Positions 5,330 to 51,865 of a stretch of 51,865 nt of DNA are shown here, piece after piece. The first letter of the stretch is position 1, and each line of letters opens with the position of its first letter. The stretch spans positions 1-51,865 of the IMG/VR virus record IMGVR_UViG_3300025120_000079; one strand, written 5' to 3'. A program made the translations under genes and the position numbers. Source of the DNA: a virus. Below the pieces are notes generated by a model, which was not told where the DNA came from, did not search any database, and was given only the letters and a program-made list of their open reading frames with translations.

Positions 5330-7039
5330 ATGCAAACAACAGAGATCAATGGATTCTTGATTGATGATTTCAATCAACATAAGCTAGAAGAAGGCAAAAA
5401 GCAGGGTACATGCCCTATTTGTTCTCACACTAGAAAACCCAAGAATCAAAAGGCAAAATGTGCGTCTTATGATTGGGAACGGGGTCTCGGTACTTGTCAC
5501 AATTGTAATACAACTTTTCAACTACATACTTACAAACGCAAAGGTGAGACTGTTAAGGTATATGAAAGACCCAAACAAGAGGTTATCAAAACACCTGACA
5601 GTAAAGTTATTGAATGGTTTAAATCAAGAGGTATATCTCAGAAAACCCTTGCTGACTTAAACGTTGGCGAGGGATCTGAATATATGCCGCAAACCGGCAA
5701 AGCCGAGAACACAATAAAGTTTAATTATTTTATAGGTGGTGATTTAATAAATATTAAATATCGCGATGGAAGAAAGAACTTTAAATTATATAAAGGAGCT
5801 GAAAAAGTATTTTATAATATTGATAGCATTGTAGGTTATGACTCTTGTGTCATAGTTGAAGGCGAAATGGATGTATTAGCTTTACATGAAGCTGGTATTA
5901 CAAACGCAATATCTGTGCCTAATGGTGCTACATTAAATACTAATAACTTAGATTATCTTGATAATTGTATTGATTATTTTGAAGATAAAGAAAAAGTTAT
6001 ATTAGCTGTAGATTCAGATGAAGCAGGTCAAGCATTACAAGCAGAGTTAATAAGAAGATTAGGATCTGAAGTATGCTATATAGCTACGTTTGATGATTGT
6101 AAAGATGCTAACGAATATTTACAGAAACATGGCAAACAACAATTGGCAGAGCGTATTTCGAGCTCACGCCCAGTCCCGCTTGAAAATGTCACGACATTTA
6201 GGGACATTGAAGACGAAGTCACAGACTTTGTACGTAACGGGTTTAAACCTGGATATCAAATTGGCTTGGAGAATTTTGATAACATCTTTTCGACTTATAC
6301 TGGTCAGTTTATTACTGTCACTGGTATTCCGAGTAGCGGGAAATCAGATTTTGTCGATCAGATGGTTATTGGCTATAACCAAAACTATGGCTGGAAAACG
6401 GCGTTTGCTAGTCCGGAAAATGTCCCAACTTACCTTCACGCGCATAAGTTAATGCGTAAGGTTTGGCAAGGCATGCCAACAGCAGCTGATATACACGGCG
6501 ATAGATGGAATAAAATAGCTGATCATTGCAATGCAAATTTCTTTCATATTGATATGGAACGATACACGCTTGAATCAGTGTTACGTAAAGGTGCTGAGCT
6601 AGTTAAACGTAAGGGTATTAAATGCCTTGTTATTGATCCGTTTAATAAAGTAAGAGACATAGACTGCAAAACAGAAGATGTTAATCGCTACACAATGGAG
6701 TACTTAACTAAAATTGAAATGTTTGCTAAAAAGTTTGATGTTTTAGTTTTTGTTGTAGCTCACCCTACTAAAATGTATAAAGACAAAGACGGCAAGATTG
6801 AAGAGCCTACAATGTATAGCATTAAAGGTGGCGGCGAATGGTACGATGCTAGTTATCACGGTATACTAGTTCATAGAGATTATGAAGCTAGAACTGTTAA
6901 AGCTAAAGTACTTAAAGTTAAGTTTCAAAACCTTGGTGAAAATCAAGCTGAAGCACATTTTAAGTGGGAACCAAAGTCTGGTTGCTTTATACCACACGAA
7001 CCAATTAGTATTGGTGACGATCCAATGCCTTGGGAATAA
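5330..7039 (+). CDS. Primase-helicase (T7 gp4 / Twinkle type)
   Basis: This 569-residue bifunctional replication protein has all expected parts in order. An N-terminal zinc-binding domain carries CPIC (28-31) and CHNC (56-59). A Toprim primase domain shows VEGEMD with Glu177 and VDSDEAGQ at 227-234. The RecA-like hexameric helicase domain has Walker A GIPSSGKS at 332-339 and Walker B LVIDP at 433-437, then VFVVAHPTK. It should prime and unwind DNA at the phage fork. The leader TTAAATTAAATG replaces a Shine-Dalgarno. A local GC rise covers about residues 274-384, around Walker A. Confidence 0.96.
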   Translation: MQTTEINGFLIDDFNQHKLEEGKKQGTCPICSHTRKPKNQKAKCASYDWERGLGTCHNCNTTFQLHTYKRKGETVKVYERPKQEVIKTPDSKVIEWFKSRGISQKTLADLNVGEGSEYMPQTGKAENTIKFNYFIGGDLINIKYRDGRKNFKLYKGAEKVFYNIDSIVGYDSCVIVEGEMDVLALHEAGITNAISVPNGATLNTNNLDYLDNCIDYFEDKEKVILAVDSDEAGQALQAELIRRLGSEVCYIATFDDCKDANEYLQKHGKQQLAERISSSRPVPLENVTTFRDIEDEVTDFVRNGFKPGYQIGLENFDNIFSTYTGQFITVTGIPSSGKSDFVDQMVIGYNQNYGWKTAFASPENVPTYLHAHKLMRKVWQGMPTAADIHGDRWNKIADHCNANFFHIDMERYTLESVLRKGAELVKRKGIKCLVIDPFNKVRDIDCKTEDVNRYTMEYLTKIEMFAKKFDVLVFVVAHPTKMYKDKDGKIEEPTMYSIKGGGEWYDASYHGILVHRDYEARTVKAKVLKVKFQNLGENQAEAHFKWEPKSGCFIPHEPISIGDDPMPWE

Positions 7040-7294
7040 ATGGCATGGGGTAAAAAGATAAGTATGGGTACATATGCGGCGTCAGAGTTAGAATTAAAAG
7101 CTTATAGATGGTGTATTAGAAATAAAATACATATTGCACCAAAAGCTATCAACGAAACGCGATGGTCTGTTGTTATAACAAACAACGGTAGAACACATGA
7201 AGATCCTAGCCATTATATTAAAGGTTTGATATGGAAGAAGATTTACGAATATTATAAATACTATTATGAAAAACACATTTCACAACGCAGATGA
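7040..7294 (+). CDS. Hypothetical basic protein
   Basis: An 84-residue Lys/Tyr-rich product, starting directly after the helicase stop and overlapping the next gene by 29 bases. The alternating hydrophobic stretch KHIHIAPKA-like to RWSVVITNNG could form a small beta sheet, and the end is a Tyr-rich helix. No family recognised. The overlap suggests coupled translation with the thymidylate-synthase-fold gene. Confidence 0.65.
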   Translation: MAWGKKISMGTYAASELELKAYRWCIRNKIHIAPKAINETRWSVVITNNGRTHEDPSHYIKGLIWKKIYEYYKYYYEKHISQRR

Positions 7295-7907
7295 AGCATA
7301 TGAAGCTTTACTTGATGAAGTTGTTATAAACGGTATAGAGTTTGACGGCACGCAGGCTATATTTAACTGCGGCTTTTATATAGCAAATCCTGAAGACAAC
7401 CATATTAAAAACAAACAACGTAACTGGAGTTTAGAATACGCTGAAGCTGAATGGCAATGGTATTTATCTGGTGATCCTAGCATTGACAAGCTTGGTGAAC
7501 TGTATGGAAAGATACCACCAATATGGGAACGTATGGCAAATGCTGATCGTGAAGTTAATAGCAATTACGGTTATCAGTGGAAACGTAAATGTCAAATAGA
7601 CTACGTTTGTGCAAAGCTTAAAACAAATCCTAATACACGTCACGCAGCAATTAGTATATACGACGGCAAAGAATATGATAAATACAAGAAAGACACACCT
7701 TGTACTTATGCTATACAGTTTACAATGATAAACAACGAGCTGTGTATGTCTGTCTATATGCGTTCTAATGACATCTGGTACGGCTTCTGTAATGATCAGT
7801 ATCAATTTTCATCATTACAAAAACTAATTGCTAGACGTCTTAATTTAAAAATTGGTTGGTATTACCACCACGCACATAACATGCACTTATATAACGATAA
7901 ATTATAA
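7266..7907 (+). CDS. Thymidylate synthase-fold enzyme, probable dCMP hydroxymethylase
   Basis: This 213-residue enzyme aligns without gaps to the catalytic half of thymidylate synthase (264 residues in E. coli). Visible residues: Glu62 in AEWQWYLSGD; the NYGYQW loop at 100-105; nucleophile Cys146 in DTPCTYAIQF; RSND with Arg166 and Asp169; and MHLY with His207 and Tyr209. The position equal to the uracil-selecting Asn177 of E. coli is Asp177 here (GFCNDQYQF). Asp is the residue found in T4 gp42 dCMP hydroxymethylase and it favours dCMP. The C-terminal folate-binding end of ordinary ThyA is missing. The two following genes encode MazG-type pyrophosphatases. Confidence 0.85.
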   Translation: MKNTFHNADEAYEALLDEVVINGIEFDGTQAIFNCGFYIANPEDNHIKNKQRNWSLEYAEAEWQWYLSGDPSIDKLGELYGKIPPIWERMANADREVNSNYGYQWKRKCQIDYVCAKLKTNPNTRHAAISIYDGKEYDKYKKDTPCTYAIQFTMINNELCMSVYMRSNDIWYGFCNDQYQFSSLQKLIARRLNLKIGWYYHHAHNMHLYNDKL

Positions 7908-7909
7908 TT

Positions 7910-8692
7910 ATGTATTATTTATACCACATACCAGGTAAAAAGATCGGCGTTACACGTGATCTTAATACCAGAGTTACCCTTATTCAAGGCTATAAGGAGA
8001 ATGAGTATGAAGTTCTTGAACAGTCAGACGATATAAGTTATATATCAGACCGTGAAATAGAACTTCAAAAGTCTTACGGCTATAAGGTCGATAGAAAACC
8101 ATATAAACACTTATTTAATAAAATGAATATAAACGCAACAGAACAAACCTCAACTTTCCCTTGTCCAATTAATAAATTAAAAGGACAATTACAGGATAAT
8201 ATAGGTCTTACTTGGAAAACAGATCACGGCCAGTTTGAAATTAATAAACGAACGATCTCATGGATAATGGCTAATGTTAAGGAATCAATGTATAATCACA
8301 ATAGATCATATGTTTATAACAAAGCTTTTTACGAAGCATTTTTAGATACAAGGCACACGCCAAAACCTAAATACGCAACTAGCGTAGATAAAATACCAAA
8401 TCGTTTTGAACTCATAAGAATATGGGCTAAAGACAGAGGTTTATACGACAAGGGCAATTCGCACACTCAATACGTAAAGCTGATGGAAGAAGCTGGTGAG
8501 CTTGCTCAAGCAATATTAAAACAAGACAAACCTGAAATACTAGATGCTATTGGAGATATGGTCGTAGTGCTTACAAACTTAGCAGAACTTGAAGGTTTTA
8601 CAATTGAAGACTGTATTGATTCGGCTTATACTGAAATATCTACACGTAGAGGTAAAATGCTTAATGGGACATTTGTAAAAGAAACATTATGA
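7910..8692 (+). CDS. GIY-YIG-like domain fused to MazG pyrophosphatase
   Basis: A two-domain protein of 260 residues. The first 60 residues resemble a minimal GIY-YIG nuclease fold: YYLYHIPGKKIGVTRDLNTR followed by a Glu-rich DREIELQKSYGY helix; the usual Tyr-Ile-Gly triad is altered (KIGVT). The last about 80 residues are a MazG all-alpha NTP pyrophosphatase, with EE193-194, Glu197 in KLMEEAGELAQAI and Glu209/Asp216 in EILDAIGDMV. The middle (70-160) is unassigned. MazG domains hydrolyse (d)NTPs to monophosphates; T4 dCTPase gp56 is of this superfamily. It lies three bases after the ThyA-fold gene. Confidence 0.85.
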   Translation: MYYLYHIPGKKIGVTRDLNTRVTLIQGYKENEYEVLEQSDDISYISDREIELQKSYGYKVDRKPYKHLFNKMNINATEQTSTFPCPINKLKGQLQDNIGLTWKTDHGQFEINKRTISWIMANVKESMYNHNRSYVYNKAFYEAFLDTRHTPKPKYATSVDKIPNRFELIRIWAKDRGLYDKGNSHTQYVKLMEEAGELAQAILKQDKPEILDAIGDMVVVLTNLAELEGFTIEDCIDSAYTEISTRRGKMLNGTFVKETL

Positions 8693-9652: not shown

Positions 9653-9795
9653 GCAAACAAAAAAAACAATGGAGCCTATCAGTAGGCACTTATCCAGGTA
9701 TAGTAGTTGGAATGAGATCTTACGATGAAGAACAACAAACAACTCACGTGGTATATTTACCTTTTATAGACATAGCATTAGAAGTTTATAAGTAA
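9649..9795 (+). CDS. Small hypothetical protein, 48 aa
   Basis: The product, starting MSKQKKQWSLSVGTYPGIVV, is 48 residues. A longer in-frame start at 9592 is unlikely because the region before 9649 is coding in another frame; 9649 gives the standard ATGA overlap with the preceding stop. The stop overlaps nrdB by one base. It reads as a compact beta sheet (LSVGTYPGIVVGMRSY, HVVYLPFIDIAL). Coupling to nrdB hints at nucleotide metabolism, but function is unknown. Confidence 0.7.
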   Translation: MSKQKKQWSLSVGTYPGIVVGMRSYDEEQQTTHVVYLPFIDIALEVYK

Positions 9796-10763
9796 TGGGG
9801 TTGTTTGATAAAAGAATACCGTATAAACCTTTTGAGTACCCAGAGTATTACACAGAAGGTTGGCTAAAGCAAGCTCAAGCATTTTGGTTACACACTGAAA
9901 TACCAATGAGCGGAGATGTTAAAGATTGGAACGAAAAACTAAATGATAAAGAAAAAAACCTGGTCGGTAATATATTACTGGGCTTCGCACAGACGGAGTG
10001 CGCGGTTTCTGATTACTGGACCCAAAAAGTAGTAAGCTGGTTTCCTAAGTACGAGATACAGCAAATGGCTATGATGTTTGGATCGCAAGAAACGATACAC
10101 GCAGTAGCATACAGTTATTTAAATGAAACATTAGGACTAGAAGATTATGAAGCGTTCTTACATGAACCGGCAACGGCTGAGAGATTTGATAATCTGGTTG
10201 CTTACGACGGTGATAATTCTGTTGGTATTGGTAAAAGCTTGGCTGTATTTTCAGCCTTCGCTGAAGGAGTTAGTCTGTATAGTGCTTTTGCAGTGCTGTA
10301 TAGTTTTCAGCTTCGAAATTTACTTAAGGGTATCGGGCAACAAATGAAATGGTCTGTTCGTGACGAAAGCTTACACAGTAAAATGGGATGTAAGTTATTC
10401 CGCGATATGTGCAGTGAAAACAACCAATTATTGAATTTATGTCAAGAAGATATAGTAAAAGCTGCAGAAACCATGGTTGATCTTGAAACTAAGTATATTA
10501 ACAAGATGTTTGAGATGGGTGATATCGAAGGTATATCAGCTAATGATCTTACGCATTTTATAAAAAAGAGAGCAAATGAAAAACTTGTTGAACTGGGTTA
10601 CGCTAACCTTGGGAACCATTTCACGTATGACAAGAACGCAGCGGCTAATCTTGATTGGTTCTATCATCTTACCGGCGGGGTCACTCATACTGATTTTTTC
10701 GCAATACGGCCGACGGATTATAGCAAAGCTGGCGAAGGGGAAGACTTCGAAGATATTTGGTAA
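9795..10763 (+). CDS. nrdB: Ribonucleotide reductase class I beta subunit
   Basis: This 322-residue radical-generating subunit makes dNTPs together with NrdA encoded downstream. Metal ligands are clear: Glu68 (FAQTECAVSD), Glu99 and His102 with Tyr106 (QETIHAVAYSY), Glu157 (AEGVSLYSA), and Glu191/His194 (RDESLHSK). Spacings (31 and 34 residues) equal those of E. coli NrdB. The first ligand is Glu instead of the usual Asp while the radical-site Tyr is kept, a combination I recall from the dimanganese class Id enzymes of flavobacteria. Two short genes separate it from nrdA. Confidence 0.95.
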   Translation: MGLFDKRIPYKPFEYPEYYTEGWLKQAQAFWLHTEIPMSGDVKDWNEKLNDKEKNLVGNILLGFAQTECAVSDYWTQKVVSWFPKYEIQQMAMMFGSQETIHAVAYSYLNETLGLEDYEAFLHEPATAERFDNLVAYDGDNSVGIGKSLAVFSAFAEGVSLYSAFAVLYSFQLRNLLKGIGQQMKWSVRDESLHSKMGCKLFRDMCSENNQLLNLCQEDIVKAAETMVDLETKYINKMFEMGDIEGISANDLTHFIKKRANEKLVELGYANLGNHFTYDKNAAANLDWFYHLTGGVTHTDFFAIRPTDYSKAGEGEDFEDIW

Positions 10764-11252: not shown

Positions 11253-12974
11253 ATGTGGAACAATGAATGGAAAAAAGGAGAAGATTACCCTAAGTGGGGT
11301 GATACAGACGTATACAAAAAAACTATATCAGGCGGTTACTTACTACAAGATGAAACACCTCGTGAAGCGTATCAAAGAGTTGCTAAAACAGTTGCGCGTA
11401 GACTTTACAAACCTGAATTGGCTAATACGTTTTTTGATTATATTTGGAATGGTTGGTTGTGCTTGGCTAGTCCTGTACTATCAAACACAGGGACTGATCG
11501 CGGTTTACCTATATCTTGCTTTGGCATTGATGTTGCAGACTCGATTCAAGACATAGGAAGTAAAAACCTAGAGATGATGCTACTCGCTAAGCACGGCGGT
11601 GGAGTTGGTATCGGCATAAATCAAATAAGACCCGCAGGCGCTAAAATTACAAGCAATGGAACAAGTGATGGCGTTGTGCCGTTTTGTAAAATATACGATT
11701 CTACAATACTTGCCACTAATCAAGGATCTGTCAGACGAGGAGCTGCATCGGTTAATATTAATATTGAACATTCCGATTTCGATGAGTGGCTTGAAATACG
11801 CGAACCCAAAGGTGATGTCAACAGACAATCACTTAATCTGCACCAATGCGCTGTTGTTGGCGATAAGTTTATGCGGCGAATTGAACAAGGAGATAGAGAC
11901 GCTAGAAAACGTTGGGGAAAATTACTTCAAAAGCGTAAAGCTACTGGAGAGCCTTATATTCTTTTTAAAGGTAACACAAACAAGAATAACCCCCGAGCCT
12001 ACAAAGACAATGGCTTGAAGGTACATATGACAAACATATGTTCAGAGATTACATTACACACAGATGAGAATCATAGCTTTGTATGTTGCTTGTCATCACT
12101 AAACTTAGCTAAATATGATGAATGGAAAGGAAGCAACCTTATATACCACGCTACGTGGTTTCTTGATGGCGTTATGGAGGAATTTATTCAAAGAGCAAAA
12201 GGACTTAGAGGTTTTGAAAACGCCATTCGTTCTGCTACAAAAGGACGAGCACTTGGGTTGGGTGTACTCGGATGGCACACGTATCTCCAAGAGAAGAGTA
12301 TTCCTTTTGAAGGTTTACTTGCTCAGTTTGAAACTAGGAAAATATTTTCGCAAATTAAAATCGAGTCTGAGCGCGCTAGTATGGATCTTGCTGAAGTTTA
12401 TGGCGAACCTCTGTGGTGTACTGGTACTGGTTATCGTAATACTCACCTTAGGGCTATTGCTCCCACTGTTAGCAATTCAAAGCTTAGCGGAAACATTTCA
12501 CCCGGAATAGAACCTTGGGCTGCAAATGTATTTACAGAGCAGTCTGCTAAAGGTACATTCATACGTAAAAATCCTACACTTTTAAAATTACTTAGAAAAC
12601 TTAAAATCAATAACAATGAAACATGGGATAAAATTCTGGCAGATGGTGGTAGTGTTCAAGGTCTATCTGAGCTTGACGGGGTTATGGTGGGAACACACGA
12701 TGTACCAGCTAAAGACGTTTTTAAAACGTTTAAAGAGATCAATCAACTCGAACTAGTAAATCAAGCTGGTATACGTCAGCAGTATATAGATCAGTCTGTT
12801 AGTTTAAACTTAGCATTTCCTAGTGTAGCTACACCTAAATGGATCAACCAGGTTCATATGTCAGCATGGAAGAAAGGTATTAAAACCCTATACTATACTA
12901 GAACTGAATCAGTACTTCGTGGTGATATAGCACAACAAGCTATGAGTGAAGATTGTATTGCCTGTGACGGATAA
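11253..12974 (+). CDS. nrdA: Ribonucleotide reductase class I alpha subunit
   Basis: A 573-residue catalytic subunit. Active-site residues are all present: Cys89 in PISCF, the NICSE motif with Asn261, Cys263 and Glu265, and Cys278/279 in CCLSSLNLA. The radical-transfer Tyr pair is at 547-548, and the redox C-terminus CIAC is at 568-571. There is no N-terminal ATP-cone, so the enzyme should lack dATP feedback at the overall-activity site, which is common in phage enzymes. It is the last gene of the plus-strand operon and stops 8 bases before the convergent hairpin. Confidence 0.95.
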   Translation: MWNNEWKKGEDYPKWGDTDVYKKTISGGYLLQDETPREAYQRVAKTVARRLYKPELANTFFDYIWNGWLCLASPVLSNTGTDRGLPISCFGIDVADSIQDIGSKNLEMMLLAKHGGGVGIGINQIRPAGAKITSNGTSDGVVPFCKIYDSTILATNQGSVRRGAASVNINIEHSDFDEWLEIREPKGDVNRQSLNLHQCAVVGDKFMRRIEQGDRDARKRWGKLLQKRKATGEPYILFKGNTNKNNPRAYKDNGLKVHMTNICSEITLHTDENHSFVCCLSSLNLAKYDEWKGSNLIYHATWFLDGVMEEFIQRAKGLRGFENAIRSATKGRALGLGVLGWHTYLQEKSIPFEGLLAQFETRKIFSQIKIESERASMDLAEVYGEPLWCTGTGYRNTHLRAIAPTVSNSKLSGNISPGIEPWAANVFTEQSAKGTFIRKNPTLLKLLRKLKINNNETWDKILADGGSVQGLSELDGVMVGTHDVPAKDVFKTFKEINQLELVNQAGIRQQYIDQSVSLNLAFPSVATPKWINQVHMSAWKKGIKTLYYTRTESVLRGDIAQQAMSEDCIACDG

Positions 12975-43259: not shown

Positions 43260-43537
43260 TACTTCTTAGATCTACCTTCAGCAAAACCTTTAAAAGTTCT
43301 TTCTTCTTTAACTTCTTTTGGTTTATCGTTTAATAAGTTTTCCTCTTCTTCAATGCGGCTAAGTATTTCAAAGGCATCGAATATAGCAAGCTTTTTAGTA
43401 GCTGCGGCGTTTTTAAGTCTGTCAGCTGATATATCATCATCTGAATCAACAATAGCTTCTTTAGCTACTTTGATTAACTCCTCAACTGCTCGCTGCCCAG
43501 CTTGGATTATATTCTTCTTCGTTTCCTTGGTATTCAT
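43259..43537 (-). CDS. Small protein upstream of terminase (possible small subunit)
   Basis: A 92-residue helical acidic-to-basic protein: RAVEELIKVAKEAIVDSDDD, then SADRLKNAAATKKLAIFDAF and a Lys-rich end. Small terminases are helical DNA-binding proteins of about this size and lie just before terL, so it may be the small subunit; it has no recognised HTH. It overlaps the double-GroES gene by 56 bases. Confidence 0.6.
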   Translation of the reverse strand: MNTKETKKNIIQAGQRAVEELIKVAKEAIVDSDDDISADRLKNAAATKKLAIFDAFEILSRIEEEENLLNDKPKEVKEERTFKGFAEGRSKK

Positions 43538-44087
43538 ACTTAATTACAATATCATTAGATTTCATACAATAAAGTCGTTTGTCTTCGACTAAAAACTCCC
43601 ACTCACTGTTAGGAGTAAACCCTACAAGATCACCTGGGCTTATATTTAGCGCTTTTAAGGACTTATTGCCATATTTAAGTATACCAATAAGGTTTGCCTC
43701 TTTATCTAGCGTTAGATCTTGTTTGCTTTTTATAGGTGTTATAAAGCATCTGTTATTTATAGTTTTCCAGTTATTTTTATTTTTGTATAAATATATCTGA
43801 TCAACTGCGCAGAAATAGTAATCGTCTTTAAAATAAGATCTGCTTTTTTTCTTCTCACCTTTCATGTCATAAAACGTTCTAAACACGTTTTGATGTATGA
43901 TTATTATAGCGCCTTTCTTTATAGGTGTTGAAAAGGCGGCTGGAGTTTCTACAACTCTAGCCAACCTGTTTACAAACTTCCAGTTTTCAATTTTAGTATT
44001 TACAACTAATTTTTTATTACCTACGTTAACAGTATTGCTGTATTTATCGCCAACTGGTTCAACGATAAAATCGTATAGACTCTTCAT
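43482..44087 (-). CDS. Double GroES-fold protein
   Basis: A 201-residue protein that looks like two tandem GroES barrels. First copy (about 5-102): FIVEPVGDKY, KLVVNTKIEN, VVETPAAFSTPIKKGAIIII, and a VDQIYLYK closing strand. Second copy (about 112-186): LIGILKYGNKSLKALNISPG, DLVGFTP, EDKRLYCMKSNDIVIKYE. These match GroES elements GxVLxVGxG, VKVGDxVxF and EEVLIMSESDIL. No flexible mobile loop like that of GroES is obvious. It lies beside the terminase, so it may act in packaging or assembly instead of folding. A separate GroES occurs at 50714-50974. Confidence 0.75.
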   Translation of the reverse strand: MKSLYDFIVEPVGDKYSNTVNVGNKKLVVNTKIENWKFVNRLARVVETPAAFSTPIKKGAIIIIHQNVFRTFYDMKGEKKKSRSYFKDDYYFCAVDQIYLYKNKNNWKTINNRCFITPIKSKQDLTLDKEANLIGILKYGNKSLKALNISPGDLVGFTPNSEWEFLVEDKRLYCMKSNDIVIKYEYQGNEEEYNPSWAASS

Positions 44088-50717: not shown

Positions 50718-50974
50718 ACTACAACAACTATATCTGCAGATTTAATTACGTGATACGAATTATCACCAACTTCTATTTTGTGACCAGCGTGACGATCAAA
50801 ATATATAGTGTCTTTTTCTTTGACACCTGATACTTCTTCACCTGCAGATACAACATTTGCTTTTACATAGCGTATATCCTCACGTTGATTTTCAGCAAGA
50901 AGTAAACCACCTTTAGTTTTAGTAGTACCTTCTTTTTCTTTTATTATAATTAAATTTCTACCTATTGCCTTCAT
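50714..50974 (-). CDS. groES: Co-chaperonin GroES
   Basis: An 86-residue GroES/Cpn10. Barrel strands RNLIIIKEKEG, VKANVVSAGEEVSGVKEKDT and YHVIKSADIVVVV are clear; the mobile loop that contacts GroEL is about residues 17-31 (TTKTKGGLLLAENQ). It overlaps the groEL stop by 17 bases and the wHTH gene by four (ATGA). It would cap the phage or host chaperonin to fold virion proteins. groEL precedes groES here, the reverse of the bacterial order. Confidence 0.93.
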   Translation of the reverse strand: MKAIGRNLIIIKEKEGTTKTKGGLLLAENQREDIRYVKANVVSAGEEVSGVKEKDTIYFDRHAGHKIEVGDNSYHVIKSADIVVVV

Positions 50975-51865
50975 CTATTCTTAAATTATTGATTACACAA
51001 TCAGTAGATAATATTGTTGTTGCTACAGAAGCTGCATTTTGAAGAGCGCTCTTGGTGACTAGTAGTGGATCTATAATACCCGACTTAATCATATTTACCA
51101 TTTTTCCTGTAACCACATTGTAGCCTTGTCCTTTTCTTGTTGGTGTCTTTCTATCAGATTCTAGACCTGCGTTTTCAAGTATAGTTTTAAAAGGGGCTTT
51201 TATAGCTTCTAATAAAACTGTTTCACCTATTGACTTGGCTGTTATATTCGTTGCAGCGTTTAATAGAGCAATACCACCACCAGGAACAATCCCTTCTTTG
51301 ATAGCAGCTTTAGTAGCACAGATAGCGTCTTCTACTCTATCTGTTTTTTCTTTTAATTCTATTTCTGAATTAGCACCTACTTTTACAATTGCTATTTTAG
51401 CAGACAGCATGGCTAATCTTTTTTCTAGCTTTATAACCTTATTAGGATTTTTCTCTTTAACTAGTTCTTTTTTAAGAGTTTTTATAACATCATTAATCTC
51501 TTCGTTTTCTTCTTCTATTTGAAGCACGGTATCTTCATGTGATGTAACGCTTTTTAAACATGTTCCTAAATGATCAACTTGTATCATTTCCATGTCATCA
51601 CCAAGGTCTTCGTTTATAATTGTAGCTCCGGTGAGTAGCGAAAGATCTTGAAGTATTTGTTGTTTATTAACACCGTAAGTTGGTGCGTTTATAACATTTA
51701 CTTTGATATTACCTTTCATTTTATTCATTGCTAGAGCTGATAAAACACCTTGTTCTAAATCGCCTATAATAAGCAAAGGTTTGTTGTTTTTTATTACGTA
51801 CTCTAGCACAGATTGAATCTGTCGTATTGTATCAACTGGTGATTCTAGTAAAAGCACTAGTGGCT
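50958..51865 (-). CDS. groEL: Chaperonin GroEL, 5' part cut by window edge
   Basis: The C-terminal about 302 residues of a phage-encoded chaperonin; the 5' end lies beyond the window (the frame is open to base 51865, and a GTG at 51857 is not the true start). Seen: apical segment NKPLLIIGDLEQGVLSALAM, VINAPTYGVNKQQILQDLSL, and the intermediate/equatorial VEDAICATKAAIKEGIVPGG, YNVVTGKMVNMIKSGIIDPL and SALQNAASVATTIL. The bacterial GGM tail is absent; it ends LRIDEGNR. Confidence 0.95.
   Translation of the reverse strand, partial: PLVLLLESPVDTIRQIQSVLEYVIKNNKPLLIIGDLEQGVLSALAMNKMKGNIKVNVINAPTYGVNKQQILQDLSLLTGATIINEDLGDDMEMIQVDHLGTCLKSVTSHEDTVLQIEEENEEINDVIKTLKKELVKEKNPNKVIKLEKRLAMLSAKIAIVKVGANSEIELKEKTDRVEDAICATKAAIKEGIVPGGGIALLNAATNITAKSIGETVLLEAIKAPFKTILENAGLESDRKTPTRKGQGYNVVTGKMVNMIKSGIIDPLLVTKSALQNAASVATTILSTDCVINNLRIDEGNR

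Follow-up and report, generated by a model that had tools for sequence, protein, structure and literature searches.

A compact candidate dCMP 5-hydroxymethylase and its MazG-like gene partner in an uncultivated phage

The window, by which we mean the whole stretch of DNA analysed, corresponds to one whole IMG/VR virus record, 51,865 bases long and classed as linear. On its plus strand, an ATG-initiated ORF (7266..7907) encodes a 213-aa protein that we propose as a candidate compact dCMP 5-hydroxymethylase of the ThyA fold, on the basis of matches to PF00303 and phrog_160, residue alignment and an AF2 model. Upstream in the same plus-strand gene run lies a TOPRIM primase/helicase (5330..7039; phrog_239, 3e-82), followed by a conserved 84-aa ORF with no family match (7040..7294), which overlaps the start of the candidate gene and occurs in most of 80 loci. 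Only 2 bp downstream of the candidate gene, a 260-aa protein (7910..8692, plus strand) joins a GIY-YIG-like N-terminal domain to a C-terminal MazG/PRA-PH-like NTP pyrophosphatase domain (residues ~160-258; phrog_1992, 5e-35; PF03819, 8.5e-8; PF01503, 7e-6). The genes for the small (9795..10763; PF00268, 2.7e-57) and large (11253..12974; PF02867, 3.5e-90) subunits of ribonucleotide reductase (RNR) follow downstream on the same strand as part of a nucleotide-supply cluster. In some relatives, a JmjC-type protein (PF08007) and other cupin/oxygenase-like proteins adjoin the RNR genes (L033:15258-16408; L031:13383-14102).

The structural half of the window contains a GroES-like gene (43482-44087) and a GroEL gene (50958-51857) cut by the contig end. 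Because the GroEL ORF runs off the right end and many related records measure 55-71 kb, the window appears to be a fragment of a ~60-70 kb genome. IMG/VR holds 365 related stretches. The terminase is 63% identical to that of a Manatee Spring metagenome phage and 43.5% identical to those of the Flavobacterium elemo phages, with matches to Cellulophaga phages as well; a crAss-like origin, considered from gene sizes, was rejected on these terminase matches.

The 213-aa protein matched PF00303 (Thymidylat_synt) with an E-value of 7e-25 and 88 bits (cut-off 24.3) and phrog_160 at 4.6e-39, and fell far under all of the NCBIfam thymidylate synthase (TS) cut-offs, with 77 bits against a cut-off of 327 for the best model. 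Its closest PDB sequences were MilA (1.5e-18) and then T4 gp42 (T4dCH; 7e-15), with ThyA behind both, and its profile scores were 89 bits for MilA, 75 for T4dCH, 71 for ThyA and 53 for AfhB. An AF2 model built from 28 sequences reached a mean pLDDT of 88.3 and a pTM of 0.86, and VIA-align placed it nearest to the AfhB structures 9iqc (Z 22.4) and 9iqu (22.2), tied with MilA (21.9), followed by T4dCH (19.2) and E. coli ThyA (19.0). The stop codon comes 4 residues past Tyr209; the last ~50 residues of ThyA, and the C-terminal tail that seals the TS active site, are absent. This short C-terminus does not reflect a local frameshift, because the same length is the family rule: 66 relatives are also 213 aa long, and most of the others differ by a few residues.

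The protein was aligned with E. coli ThyA, T4 gp42, SPO1 gp29 and a wider set of TS-fold enzymes. In ThyA numbering, with its own numbering in brackets, it keeps Glu58 (E62), Trp80 (W87), Tyr94 (Y101) and Arg126 (R125) in the first half and Cys146, Arg166, Ser167, Asp169, Gly173, His207 and Tyr209 in the second. The ThyA-fold core, consisting of the nucleophilic Cys146 (codon 7701-7703), Glu58, Asp169, His207 and Tyr209, is complete. The first-pass annotation had named Glu62, Cys146, Arg166, Asp169, His207 and Tyr209 as retained TS residues, and the alignment confirmed each of them; the likeness did not extend to the whole phosphate site, where ThyA Arg127 has become His and the Arg21 loop is missing, or to the absent C-terminal residues. 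Owing to the two changes at the phosphate site, phosphate binding must differ from that of T4dCH. The adjacent Arg pair that T4dCH uses for phosphate (123', 124') is Arg-His in the window, the second residue being His in 78 of 81 family sequences and Gln in the other 3, and Arg-Arg occurs in the relative L096 and in copy 2 from Bacteroides phage BF486P2. We treated the pair as an accessory rather than a family-defining feature, since SPO1 gp29 has Arg-Gln. Arg220 of T4dCH, part of its water network, aligns with Asp211 of the window protein.

Two residues characteristic of ThyA, Asn177 and Leu143, are replaced by Asp177 (codon GAT, 7794-7796) and Asp143 (codon 7692-7694). Between Cys146 and Tyr209 the protein aligns with ThyA without gaps, and the Asn-Asp pair is shared with T4 gp42 (GFRND, against GFCND in the window), so that the register is secure and the residue at the site is Asp177, not Asn176. 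Asp occupies this position in 80/80 family sequences that reach it, the window included (alignment of 81; one contig stops before position 177). The gene is under purifying selection, with dN of 0.05-0.18, dS of 0.57-2.1 and dN/dS of roughly 0.06-0.13 against seven relatives. Such conservation, together with the prevailing 213-aa length and low dN/dS, indicates that Asp177 is not a chance substitution and bears out the earlier reading of an Asp at the Asn177 site of a ThyA fold. Like T4 gp42, the protein has Thr at position 147; in MetaGPA, positions 177 and 147 were the two that best distinguished the TS-family proteins of cytosine-modified phage contigs from the others (PMC8670742).

Asp177 by itself argues only for cytosine as the base, since, according to the account of Liu and Santi (1992) given in PMC8670742, the Asn-to-Asp change turns TS into a dCMP methylase. 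A more specific signature comes from the ternary structure of T4dCH, in which Asp145, three residues before Cys148, activates a water together with Ser94 and Tyr96; D145N, Y96F and S94N each abolish activity, and TS carries Leu at the Asp145 position (PMC6400193). The window protein matches these residues with Asp143-T-P-Cys146 (DTPC), which makes Asp143 the putative water-activating residue, and Ser99-N-Tyr101 (NSNY).

Enzymes of the TS superfamily also include the 5-hodCMP synthases (PMC13390438), and a flavin-dependent dCMP 5-hydroxylase of this kind, providing 5-hydroxycytosine for direct glycosylation, would share several features with the window protein. The newly solved AfhB of phage HY126 (PDB 9iqu/9iqc) heads the structural matches, is of similar compact length, and carries both Cys146 and Asp177. 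However, in the HMMER alignment AfhB shows Phe in place of both Glu58 and Tyr209, Asn in place of Asp169 and Glu at the -3 position, and has lost Gly173; all four residues are kept in the window protein, which has Asp143 at -3. Its profile score against AfhB is also below those against MilA and T4dCH, and no glycosylation genes were recognised. We therefore consider hydroxylation of dCMP very unlikely. Sphingomonas phage PAU gp182 (L101:1183-1890), annotated as a thymidylate synthase, shares with AfhB the replacement of Glu58 by Phe and of Asp169 by Asn, has the motif EYPC, likewise lacks Gly173 and Tyr209, and is probably a dCMP 5-hydroxylase.

The engineered TS described above raises a second alternative, a dCMP methylase forming 5-methyl-dCMP, as ThyA N177D does. 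Less credible still, it is opposed by two hydroxymethylase features of the window protein, the Asp at -3 where TS has Leu and the Ser at the Val93/Ser94 site, and by the loss of the TS tail, which in TS closes the active site so that hydride transfer can occur. An enzyme acting on dUMP, whether the phage's own thymidylate synthase or, like SPO1 gp29, a dUMP hydroxymethylase, would suit both the ThyA family membership and the presence in related records of one PF00303 gene per genome and no ThyX. It is more improbable again, because Asn177 is found in all presumed dUMP enzymes compared (EcThyA, D6E, Arcadia, G, SPO1 gp29, KWBSE and Molly), against Asp throughout the window family; SPO1 gp29 combines Asn177 with Asp at -3. 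Least probable of all is the ribonucleotide CMP as substrate, as in MilA, the best-scoring solved homologue, whose preference is set by Ala176/Lys133 and reversed by A176S/K133R (PMC5175136), since Ser167 and Arg125 (the ThyA Arg126 equivalent) of the window protein are the residues of dCMP and dUMP enzymes, which indicates a deoxyribose substrate.

The linkage of the candidate hydroxymethylase gene to its MazG-like neighbour is invariant. The two genes are adjacent in 79/79 loci where the sequence continues, usually with a 4-base overlap or a 2-5-base gap, and with a small ORF between them in three. A strict MazG motif expression was unmatched by 17/80 of the MazG ORFs. The N-terminal domain of one homologue of the 7910..8692 product matched MUG113 at 2.9e-4, just under the cut-off. 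TS and PRA-PH proteins co-occur on cytosine-modified contigs in the MetaGPA study. By analogy with T4 gp56, we propose that the MazG-like protein may act as a dCTP/dNTP pyrophosphatase partner.

Taken together, the signature residues, the nearest solved homologues, the invariant MazG neighbour and the occurrence of homologues beside or near beta-glucosyltransferase (beta-GT) genes in phages VPE25, ATCCB and COW86c make dCMP 5-hydroxymethylation the best explanation, and the 213-aa protein very probably has this activity. The likely dCMP hydroxymethylase of the first-pass annotation is thus supported, through Asp143, Ser99-x-Tyr101 and Ser167/Arg125, residues it had not named.

If the protein works as T4 gp42 does, Glu62 would open methylene-tetrahydrofolate, Cys146 would attack C6 of dCMP, and Asp177 would protonate N3 of the cytosine. 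The C5 methylene intermediate would not be reduced but would be trapped by a water that Asp143, Ser99 and Tyr101 hold in place, giving 5-hydroxymethyl-dCMP and tetrahydrofolate. The MazG-like partner would probably hydrolyse dCTP to dCMP, which would provide the substrate and also prevent the incorporation of plain cytosine into new DNA; gp56 has the same dCTP-hydrolysing role in T4. Host kinases and the host DNA polymerase would then bring 5hmdC into DNA. On this basis the phage probably alters the cytosines of its own DNA, escaping host defences.

The downstream route to modified DNA was not seen. Among 24 records (the window and 23 related ones), we recognised no DNA polymerase A/B, ThyX or T4-type dNMP kinase (PF21448), and no beta-GT, GT-1 or carbamoyltransferase, although absence from the models is not proof of absence from the genomes. 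The first-pass annotation had seen no glucosyltransferase, which is right for the window and holds for the related records, of which G003 (64.6 kb) appears near-complete: its two ends fall at genes that are next to each other in the gene order of the window, and the additional ~13 kb contains mostly tail-like and small ORFs. The annotation of an elemo isolate lists neither a DNA polymerase nor a TS gene. Since no phage kinase or polymerase was recognised, the host probably supplies both, and 5-hydroxymethylcytosine (5hmC) may be left bare or be decorated by an enzyme that we did not recognise. The phage group, lacking a recognised family A/B DNA polymerase, yet has a primase-helicase, a sigma-like factor, an Erf protein, a ligase and RNR. 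Literature searches on crAss-like hydroxymethylases and on 5hmC in Bacteroides or Flavobacterium phages found nothing relevant.

A broader reading, which we offer tentatively and hold to be rather doubtful, is that a group of uncultivated relatives of marine flavophages use 5hmC, either bare or decorated by the host, in place of cytosine. They would do so by means of a two-gene module, a minimal dCMP hydroxymethylase and a GIY-YIG-like/MazG fusion, with no DNA polymerase, dNMP kinase or glucosyltransferase of their own. The host polymerase would then have to incorporate 5hmdCTP. If true, the module would be a stripped-down version of the T4-type pathway, its GIY-YIG-like domain possibly cutting unmodified DNA. 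The assignment of the 213-aa protein as a dCMP hydroxymethylase adds a large and otherwise uncharacterised phage group, with Flavobacterium/Cellulophaga-like terminases, to the phages for which cytosine hydroxymethylation is predicted, and offers a minimal 213-residue enzyme for structure-function work. It also suggests that a few residues sort Asp177 enzymes into hydroxymethylases, hydroxylases and methylases. Should the genomes contain 5hmC, this would bear on the restriction of these phages, on Type IV defence against them and on their sequencing.

The gene pair is also present in a different phage type (L054/L055 and L096), with hydroxymethylase homologues 74% and 66% identical to the window protein, respectively. 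In L054 and L096 it is preceded by a 315-aa protein, a 300-aa orphan and a PLP-dependent enzyme (PF00291); the L055 sequence breaks off before reaching the first two of these. The 315-aa protein scored a sub-threshold 20.6 bits against the T4 beta-glucosyltransferase family PF09198 and aligned with T4 BGT in hhalign at a probability of 82% over 66 columns. A PDB profile search with the L054 protein gave no match and its AF2 model reached a pLDDT of 43, so the beta-GT likeness rests on the HMM and hhalign results over ~66 residues. These genes form a candidate cytosine hypermodification cluster (L054:7242-11392; L096:4491-9285) consisting of a protein with a beta-GT-like N-terminal stretch and a phrog_13881 C-terminal half, the orphan, the PLP enzyme, the hydroxymethylase homologue and the GIY/MazG protein. 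We came across no description of this cluster, which is possibly more novel than the window hydroxymethylase itself.

On this assignment, the window protein is a compact new representative of the known dCMP hydroxymethylase family, not a new kind of system. In a 35-row tree, its family groups with BF486P2 copy 2 (98/94) and weakly with T4 gp42-type enzymes (83/71). Asp177 changes three times on this tree, which fits one gain with losses as well as several gains, and the deep forks are unsafe because several branches are long. Among the closest known enzymes is T4 gp42 (PDB 1b5d/6a9a), which shares Asp177/179, the Asp at -3, Ser-x-Tyr, Thr147, Glu58, Cys146, the MRSND motif and the lack of the TS tail. 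The window protein is, however, 33 residues shorter, with a shorter C-terminus, ~25% identity in the structural alignment, His at the Arg124 equivalent and no Lys28 loop, and its gene has a MazG-like fusion rather than gp56 as partner and no beta-GT neighbour. The CMP 5-hydroxymethylase MilA (PDB 5jnh) is 29% identical, with Asp186 and Asp at -3, but has a large C-terminal helical domain in addition to its CMP-selecting residues. The TS-like proteins of Enterococcus phage VPE25 and Lactobacillus phage ATCCB (35-36% identity; VPE25 36%) share Asp177, Asp at -3 and Ser-x-Tyr but are longer (269-281 aa) and have a beta-GT nearby; VPE25/VFW DNA resists bisulfite conversion (PMC4999554). Bacteroides phage BF486P2 encodes, as one of two paralogues, a very divergent Asp177 TS-fold protein (L001:17168-17929) with Leu at Glu58; it is annotated as a dCMP hydroxymethyltransferase, and its activity is doubtful or different. 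The dCMP 5-hydroxymethyltransferase of the same phage (WAX06796) is 46% identical to the window protein over its full length and has the same catalytic set, differing in its 226-aa length and in belonging to a different phage, whose genome also carries the divergent paralogue and a dUTPase.
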